From: Methanobacteriota archaeon
Lineage (GTDB): Archaea > Halobacteriota > Methanosarcinia > Methanosarcinales > Methanosarcinaceae
Direction of reading: 5' to 3'
Length of the DNA: 60,939 nucleotides
Assembly: GCA_030054735.1 (NCBI GenBank)
Contig: JASGVX010000110.1
Span: 1-60,939, forward strand
In this document: positions 37,919 to 40,196 of the stretch, piece after piece
How the letters are laid out: the number at the start of each line of letters is the position of its first letter
Numbering within the stretch: the first letter of the stretch is position 1
Position numbers and translations under genes: made by a program
The notes under the pieces: generated by a model
What the model was told of the DNA's origin: nothing
The model's input: only the letters and a program-made list of their open reading frames with translations
Database searches by the model: none

Positions 37919-37954
37919 GTTTTTAAAGTATTAAAAGGACTGAAAAACCGAAAG

Positions 37955-37988
37955 CAAAGAGAAATTTCTCTTTGTTTTTTTCTTTTTT
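37955..37988 (+). terminator. Strong terminator of the mtr operon
   Basis: CAAAGAGAAATTTCTCTTTG (37955-37974) is a perfect 20-bp palindrome followed by a T-tract (TTTTTTTCTTTTTTT). Confidence 0.8.
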
Positions 37989-38055
37989 TGTACTTTGATT
38001 TGTGATTTACTTTAATTGTTTTCAATCAGGTTCTAAAATCAGCTAATATAATTAT

Positions 38056-38135: not shown

Positions 38136-39068
38136 CTATGGACCTGTGCTGTTTACATTAGTTTATTCTTAGAATTGCTCCTGAAAATATTGAGAATTTA
38201 TGGGAAGAAATTAGAAAATATTGCAGAAAAAGTCTAGATTAATATTAATTGCATAAAAAGAATTTTTCTTAAGCTTGTTTATAAAAAGGAAAGTACCTGG
38301 CAAACGAGGAAGTATTAAACGAGTTTGCCAGGTACGAGGAATCCACTCCCAACTTGCTCTTTGGGGAACAACTATTACCCTGGATCAGAAGGGATGTAAG
38401 AACCTGAACAGTGTTTTACAGAAACTCCACTCGTTCAGGAGTTATACATAACCGGCTTTACATACTCGGTTGTTTCACATCCGGTTTCCGGACTCACTGT
38501 TTGTCAAGGGTTAAACACACCTTACGGATACTGAGGACAACACAGATGGACAAACTGTGAGCAGGTATCATCAATCTGATCCCAGGGGTATTTGGCCCCC
38601 TAACTTTGTAATTTATTTAATTACATGTTTTACACAGACTTACATATATAAATAAAGAATTGTGAACCGATATTATCAGTTTTAGAGAAATTACTATTTT
38701 CTCACTTCAGCATATAGAAGGAAAGTATGACATGGTGCAGGCAATAGATTAATGAATAAAAATTGCAGATGATAGGAAACTAATAATAATTTAAAACATG
38801 AAATAATATATGAAGCCGTAAAATAACTGTCCTGTCTTAAGAATAATATAAATTGATAAGAATTCTCAAAAAATAGCATTAAATAGAAAGATTTAATATT
38901 TGGTAGCACTTACCAAGATATACACGGCTGAGGAAGGTTTTCAGAGCCCAAAGTATATCTCCTCTGGTTAAATAACTTTATTAAGTTCGAAGAGGAAGAT
39001 ATAAAAACTACTGGTATCAGGGGTATAGATCATGGATCGGAGCATAAAAGGTCATAAAACCAGAAATC
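38136..39068. other. Long intergenic region downstream of mtr
   Basis: 930 bases without a convincing ORF. The centre (38293-38600) is less AT-rich than the flanks and has strong base-pairing potential, described as a candidate ncRNA. A TATA-like TTTATAAA lies at about 38277-38284, and another (ACATATATAAATA) near 38642. Confidence 0.5.
38293..38600 (+). ncRNA. Candidate structured RNA of ~300 nt, unknown family
   Basis: A perfect 13-bp stem, GTACCTGGCAAAC (38293-38305) with GTTTGCCAGGTAC (38323-38335), opens the region. A long-range helix pairs CCCTGGATCAG (38378-38388) with CTGATCCCAGGG (38576-38587), with a single bulged base. Inside it are CCTGAAC/GTTCAGG, AACTCC/GGAGTT (mutually exclusive with the former), TCCGG/CCGGA, and CACTGTTTGTC/GACAAACTGTG (one mismatch). 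A final GGGG/CCCC hairpin is near 38585-38600. The nesting and the absence of an ORF suggest an RNA. The strand is inferred from the TATA-like sequence upstream and is not certain. It could also be a palindromic mobile-element relic. Confidence 0.4.
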
Positions 39069-39080
39069 GTGGGTGAAAAT

Positions 39081-40196
39081 ATGCTGATCAGAAAAAACAT
39101 ATCCCTTGATGATAAGTACCTTAAAAAACTGCAGCCCTTTCTGGACGCCAACGATGGGAATCTTAGCGCTGCAGTCAGGGACACAATTGAAATTGCAGAA
39201 ACAGCACTAACGCATCATAAAAGTATTGAAGAGGCAATTAGATTTTTAAAAGAAACACCCGCAAAAGAAGAGCTAAGCGACACGATTAAAAGCGGGGAAA
39301 ATTTAATTATAAATAAAACAATTCTCGAATGGCTTTTCAGGTGTGCAAAAGGAAGGCTCAGTGATGAAGAACTGGTTAATGAGCTTGTCAATCCTTTTGA
39401 AATCCACAATATGAAAGAGCTTGAGGACTATTTAAACAGGATTTCCAGAAAGAATCAGTGGCCAATCCGAACTTCAATCAAATGTGAAGACATAGAGGAC
39501 CCTGAATCTGCACTTATACTCCTCTCCAATGCCACGATAAACAGCAGAGAATTTTTTGCTCAGCTAATAGCTCATTTTCTGGCAAGATGGAAACAGCTGG
39601 ACGTAGAACATATTTTCAGAAGAGCAAATTCAACCCAGATTTCATTCAAAAAGAACCTTTCAGTTTCTCTTAATGAAACCATGCCAGGGATTAGAAAGCA
39701 TTTTGGTTATCTTGACATAGTATGCAGAGAACTTGACGACAATACAGAATTCTGGACGCAGCTAATGCATACATACAATGTTGAGAGGTATAATCTTGTG
39801 ACCCTGCACAGGAATCAGTTCGAAATTTTTGCTGCTGGAGAGGTCCCAAACCCGATAAAAAATCTGGAACGCCTGTCTAAACAGTCAATAAATGAGATGC
39901 CCCTACCTGATTTACTGGTATATTTCAGGAAGATGTACCTGGCAACCCAGCTGGTAAAGAATATTGAAATCTGTTTTGAACCAGGAAAAGAATCGATAAC
40001 CATCTTTCATGATTTTAAAAATGAAAAGGTTATCCAGAACCTTGTCGAATACTTTTCAAACATATTCAGGGAAAACGGCACACCTTTTGCAAGCTCTTTA
40101 TATTCGAGTATGATCGTGTTTAAGTTCTATGAGGAAGAGGAAGCTGACTCCGGATTATATAGAGATAAAGAGTTCACAGAAACAGATATTATATGA
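39081..40196 (+). CDS. Ribbon-helix-helix N-terminal protein, probable regulator, unknown family
   Basis: 371 residues from ATG 39081, selected because GGGTGA lies four bases upstream (a GTG at 39069 would add four residues). The N-terminus MLIRKNISLDDKYLKKLQPFLDANDGNLSAAVRDTIEIAE is a typical ribbon-helix-helix DNA-binding unit: a strand of the form IRKNISL followed by two helices. The remaining ~320 residues have no domain I recognise; an all-alpha/beta mix with LYSSMIVFKFYEEEE at the end is visible. Downstream of mtr on the same strand but over 1 kb away. A methanogen-specific regulator is plausible; I do not name one. Confidence 0.65.
   Translation: MLIRKNISLDDKYLKKLQPFLDANDGNLSAAVRDTIEIAETALTHHKSIEEAIRFLKETPAKEELSDTIKSGENLIINKTILEWLFRCAKGRLSDEELVNELVNPFEIHNMKELEDYLNRISRKNQWPIRTSIKCEDIEDPESALILLSNATINSREFFAQLIAHFLARWKQLDVEHIFRRANSTQISFKKNLSVSLNETMPGIRKHFGYLDIVCRELDDNTEFWTQLMHTYNVERYNLVTLHRNQFEIFAAGEVPNPIKNLERLSKQSINEMPLPDLLVYFRKMYLATQLVKNIEICFEPGKESITIFHDFKNEKVIQNLVEYFSNIFRENGTPFASSLYSSMIVFKFYEEEEADSGLYRDKEFTETDII

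Follow-up and report, generated by a model that had tools for sequence, protein, structure and literature searches.

The mtrH–orf39069 spacer

The DNA analysed, here termed the window, is a 60,939 nt stretch of contig JASGVX010000110.1 from an archaeon of the family Methanosarcinaceae. In the window, the spacer between mtrH and an uncharacterised open reading frame, orf39069, contains a predicted non-coding RNA (ncRNA) gene. The features are given below by window coordinates. The helices are termed P1–P4, and their 5′ and 3′ arms are named in the minus-strand sense.

37950–37989, plus strand: hairpin and T-run that resemble a terminator of the mtr operon, before the ncRNA gene
38285–38635, minus strand: predicted ncRNA gene, ∼340 nt, with a conserved, syntenic and covarying structure; strand from G·U/A·C asymmetry
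38293–38335, minus strand: P4, 3′-terminal 13 bp hairpin, perfect in the window, with A-U/G-C and C-G/U-A changes across species
38339–38357, minus strand: core GCRAGUU(U)GGGAGUGGAUUC, near-invariant in 28 Methanosarcina and retained by the sister genus
38363–38389, minus strand: P1, 3′ arms of the closing helix
38403–38413, minus strand: P3, 3′ arm
38428–38439, minus strand: P3, 5′ arm, pairs with 38403–38413 (the stem with CCTGAAC/GTTCAGG)
38492–38502, minus strand: P2, 3′ arm
38552–38562, minus strand: P2, 5′ arm, pairs with 38492–38502; 96% of cells paired
38575–38588, minus strand: P1b and P1c, 5′ arms of the long-range helix, pair with 38378–38380 and 38384–38389; U-A/C-G exchange
38592–38599, minus strand: P1a, 5′ arm of the closing helix, pairs with 38363–38371
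38643–38666, minus strand: promoter-like block TTCACAATTCTTTATTTATATATG, with a TATA-like box at 38643–38656; recognised by conservation, orientation putative
39069–40196, plus strand: orf39069, uncharacterised protein of ∼370 aa, flanked by the RNA and rtcB in Methanosarcina and relatives

A first-pass annotation of the window had proposed a structured RNA at 38293–38600. This region is indeed structured, but the conserved unit reaches farther, to the promoter-like block at 38643–38666. The 5′ end of the RNA would be near 38625–38635 and the 3′ end near 38285. On the minus strand P4 is followed on its 3′ side by a U-rich tail, and the two could form a terminator-like 3′ end.

The orf39069 product has no match in Pfam, NCBIfam or PDB, and its AlphaFold model is of low confidence (mean pLDDT 50). 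Diverged paralogues of the gene are found in several genomes. The RNA ligase gene rtcB (PF01139; 40279–41808, minus strand) is close to that of archease (PF01951; 42037–42477, minus strand), and orf39069 and rtcB remain neighbours even at loci that lack the ncRNA. Past the 3′ end of the RNA, genome G014 (L009) has a tandem array of AACAACGTGAATAAAAA-like units, and other genomes of the window's clade, clade A, have comparable AACAACAGAGAAAA units. The T-runs that recur in these units on the minus strand might act as terminators.

Secondary structure and covariation

The 13 bp hairpin proposed previously is exact in the window, 38293–38305 pairing with 38323–38335. An 11 bp long-range helix had also been described, and it exists, although its coordinates were one base off: CCTGGATCAGA (38379–38389) pairs with TCTGATCCCAGG (38575–38586), with one bulged C. 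Several internal stems had been reported as well. Such stems are present at 38403–38413/38428–38439 and, with 12–13 bp, at 38492–38505/38549–38562, the latter not being among those named at the time. Compared with 100 dinucleotide shuffles, a 318 nt segment has a folding energy better than all of them on both strands (z −4.8 plus, −3.7 minus). The early impression of more structure than in an ordinary spacer is borne out by this comparison, as well as by conservation and covariation.

The consensus fold of ten clade A species has 96.4% of its cells paired, a value that is partly by construction since these very alignments were used to derive the structures. In this clade, 10 pairs have changed on both sides, compared with 3.7 (sd 1.3) in shuffles, none of 500 being as high. 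When the 3′ arms are slid as a control, pairing in clade A falls to 38–47%. Column-shuffled alignments of the minus strand give z −8.0 for clade A and z −4.2 for the second clade, clade B, with the proviso that related sequences can exceed shuffles even without structure.

Covarying pairs in the long-range helix were regarded in the first-pass annotation as decisive, and they are found in both clades. P1 displays U-A/C-G exchanges at one pair of columns in clade A (A3 columns 55/288) and at two positions in clade B. In addition, the clade B P1 is built from a different sequence that still pairs, GGACUG-UAU-CCU-AAGAUYG against CRAUCUU-AGG-AUA-CAGUCC. P3 has three pairs that have changed on both sides, and in P4 pairs vary across the genus between A-U and G-C and between C-G and U-A. 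Variation in P2 consists of G·U pairs only, and no pair has changed both of its bases. The two-sided changes elsewhere, the control with slid arms and the replacement of sequence between clades can be considered the stronger evidence for covariation. At the level of aligned sequences, a conserved and covarying fold of the RNA is shown.

A switch between two mutually exclusive stems, CCTGAAC/GTTCAGG and AACTCC/GGAGTT, had been suggested. Both are present in the window sequence, but the second is kept in one clade only: in clade A it depends on G·U pairs when read on the minus strand, in clade B it has been replaced, and it does not covary. The switch is not supported because only the CCTGAAC/GTTCAGG stem covaries. 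Conserved mutually exclusive stems, as in a riboswitch or leader, were not found in the alignments of clades A and B.

The absence of an open reading frame, also claimed at first, holds across the orthologues in that none is conserved. Small open reading frames (sORFs) are common among M. mazei sRNAs (PMC11456600), and clade B genomes share a plus-strand frame of 33 codons that starts with GTG. Both properties would suit a dual-function or small-protein RNA (spRNA), as are several M. mazei sRNAs. Such an RNA is very improbable here, in that no frame is common to both clades, the frames are disrupted by indels, one locus (L033) has the clade B frame shifted and the conservation is explained by covariation.

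Strand and promoter-like block

A G·U pair on one strand is an A·C mismatch on the other, which provides a test of the strand. P4 read on the minus strand has 11 G·U cells versus 1 A·C. With helices defined by Watson–Crick pairs in a reference sequence, the G·U/A·C totals are 51 to 21, favouring the minus strand. With predicted structures of clade A, the G·U:A·C counts are 88:10 on the minus strand versus 34:28 on the plus strand. Consensus energies are −58.4 (minus) versus −35.4 (plus) in clade A, and −72.9 (minus) versus −28.2 (plus) for the sister-genus loci together with one Methanosarcina. Because of these counts and energies, and of the conserved TATA-containing block, the RNA is placed on the minus strand, convergent with mtr and divergent from orf39069, a position that is supported, not proven, by sequence comparison. 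A reading of the RNA as co-oriented with mtr is thus not favoured, the evidence pointing to the minus strand and a separate promoter-like block.

Most helices can form on either strand, however, and clade B alone does not separate the strands: its energies are equal and its z-score is better on the plus strand (−7.3 versus −4.2 on the minus). On the plus strand, clade B also has a TATA-like sequence, ATATTAAAA, ∼30 nt upstream of P4. A plus-strand RNA that starts at the 13 bp hairpin, whether free or released from mtr read-through, is nevertheless unlikely. The G·U/A·C asymmetry in P4 and in clade A argues against it, the sister genus also favours the minus strand, mtr has its own terminator-like hairpin upstream, and clade A has no conserved plus-strand promoter. 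An mtr 3′ UTR is rejected, the RNA being placed on the strand opposite to mtr and next to a promoter-like block.

The most conserved part of the spacer is 38627–38666, with a between-clade identity of 0.89. The promoter-like block within it is unique in the genome and recognisable in the sister genus, and in Methanosarcina sp. KYL-1 it is lost together with the RNA. From its TATA-like box, a minus-strand RNA would start near 38625, which again is supported but not proven. This block is close to symmetric, and the plus strand could be transcribed from it as well. Another non-coding block with strong conservation, 38867–38906 (between-clade identity 0.84), is kept in KYL-1 and is probably the promoter of orf39069.

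These properties bear on whether the region acts in cis on orf39069, as a long 5′ leader or as a divergent promoter region, instead of being the gene for a free RNA. The region always adjoins orf39069, and the TATA-like block could fire in both directions. Yet orf39069 has its own conserved upstream block, which KYL-1 retains without the RNA, and the gene is also found in other genera where there is no match to the RNA at the locus. A role in cis on orf39069 therefore appears decidedly improbable. On the minus strand no co-oriented gene is directly downstream, the next gene in that direction being mtrH, which is convergent. A cis leader is thus also unlikely. In all, the mtrH–orf39069 spacer is quite probably the gene for an independent, non-coding and highly structured RNA of ∼340 nt on the minus strand.

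Distribution and synteny

A DNA search with a clade B query reveals single-copy orthologues in 28 of 31 Methanosarcina genomes. A covariance model built from the 3′ third of the RNA was used to search 186 genomes of the order; the same 28 Methanosarcina genomes have strong matches, and beyond Methanosarcina and one sister genus there is no other convincing match. All four genomes of the sister genus (G115–G118) have a diverged orthologue in the same place; these genomes include metagenome-assembled ones such as UBA9310, BM5_bin.6 and BL5_bin.6. The gene order mtrH–RNA–orf39069 is kept at every Methanosarcina locus checked.

Three Methanosarcina genomes are without the RNA, two of which (G011 and G024) are incomplete. 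The third, that of Methanosarcina sp. KYL-1 (G026), is 99% complete, and its mtrH–orf39069 spacer is only ∼450 bp, with neither the RNA nor the promoter-like block. The KYL-1 locus (L090, about 1034–1498) appears as a clean loss of both in a complete genome. That a complete genome has lost the RNA speaks against its being essential in all species.

The perfect 13 bp inverted repeat would suit a mobile element, of which the locus could be a palindromic end or a remnant; identity with a transposon end had been named in the first-pass annotation as a possible refutation. That identity was not borne out, and such an origin is now scarcely credible. In each of 28 species the RNA is single copy and occupies the same site, and neither the multiple copies nor the varied sites of a transposon end or MITE were found. 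There is no match in plasmids and no match of the clade B core in viral contigs. Synteny and covariation likewise contradict a mobile element.

The near-invariant core

The most constrained part of the RNA is GCGAGUU(U)GGGAGUGGAUUC. It may fold into a weak, G·U-rich hairpin or base-pair with a YCCAA(A) stretch upstream; the pairing proposed does not covary. The core is likely to be a contact site for a partner. A long, exact and conserved complement of the core, as an mRNA target would have, was not found in the genomes searched.

Binding to the 3′ tail of 16S rRNA as a Shine–Dalgarno mimic was considered. The core pairs with it at −13.5 kcal/mol, but 12% of shuffled cores pair equally well, and the mimic is rejected as no better than shuffled cores. 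In a search of 393 genomes from the phylum, the core 20-mer is found only once outside the RNA loci, in another archaeal family (L177). That copy is in a coding-like stretch and looks like chance, and it is not regarded as a relative of the RNA. The orf39069 product has been set aside as the partner protein, since it has no family match and a low-confidence model, and the gene is present without the RNA in KYL-1.

Comparison with other RNAs

Rfam searches of the window and of representatives of both clades and the sister genus gave no match at or above the gathering score, and relaxed thresholds gave no credible match in the two clades and sister genus. The original suggestion of a new Methanosarcina RNA has stood up well: the RNA is structured, non-coding and of genus level, and no Rfam family matches it. 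No paper that names an RNA at the mtrH–orf39069 locus was found in the literature searched.

RNA-seq of M. mazei revealed 199 trans-encoded sRNAs, 21% of which are conserved in M. barkeri and M. acetivorans (PMC3432209), and the present RNA may be one of the 199. Like the M. mazei trans-encoded sRNAs sRNA162 and sRNA154, it is intergenic and non-coding, has a proposed promoter of its own, is conserved among Methanosarcina species and is apparently outside Rfam. It is, however, longer (∼340 nt) than sRNA162, which is 191 nt (PMC3510493), and has a covarying closed domain. The M. mazei sRNA papers found do not describe its locus and sequence.

Archaeal RNase P RNA (RF00373) and other large housekeeping RNAs resemble it in length, in a long-range closing helix and in being single copy, but it differs from them in having no Rfam match and in its loss from one complete Methanosarcina genome. 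RNase P RNA itself is rejected as an identity, as it is located elsewhere in the same genome. OLE, GOLLD and ROOL are bacterial orphan structured RNAs found by comparative genomics. As with these, the present RNA was first recognised as a conserved multi-stem structure of unknown function. It is smaller, archaeal, chromosomal and limited to two genera, and has no Rfam match to them.

Proposed function and significance

Transcription would start at the TATA-like block (38643–38666) and end at P4 and the U-rich tail near 38285. As the comparative data show, the closing helix P1 folds the first two thirds of the RNA into one multi-stem domain that includes P2 and P3. The near-invariant core and then the terminal stem P4 come after this domain. 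Perhaps the folded domain serves as a stable body from which the core is presented to a partner, either protein or RNA, the RNA acting in trans as a regulatory or RNP RNA. The orphan ncRNA is probably of this trans-acting type; the role is proposed because there is no cis gene, and not from any target. A more tentative proposal, possible rather than probable, is that the RNA represents a new, previously undescribed class of lineage-specific archaeal ncRNA built around the GGGAGUGGAUUC core, which serves Methanosarcina as a scaffold for an RNP or as a global regulator at the post-transcriptional level.

Structures with comparative support are rare among archaeal ncRNAs outside the universal ones, and this RNA would add an archaeal family to Rfam. 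Nearly all Methanosarcina have it, and as the genus is a genetically tractable model of methane biology, expression, deletion and partner pull-down experiments are directly feasible. KYL-1 represents a natural deletion that can be used for phenotype comparison. This natural loss and the near-invariant core provide immediate handles on function.
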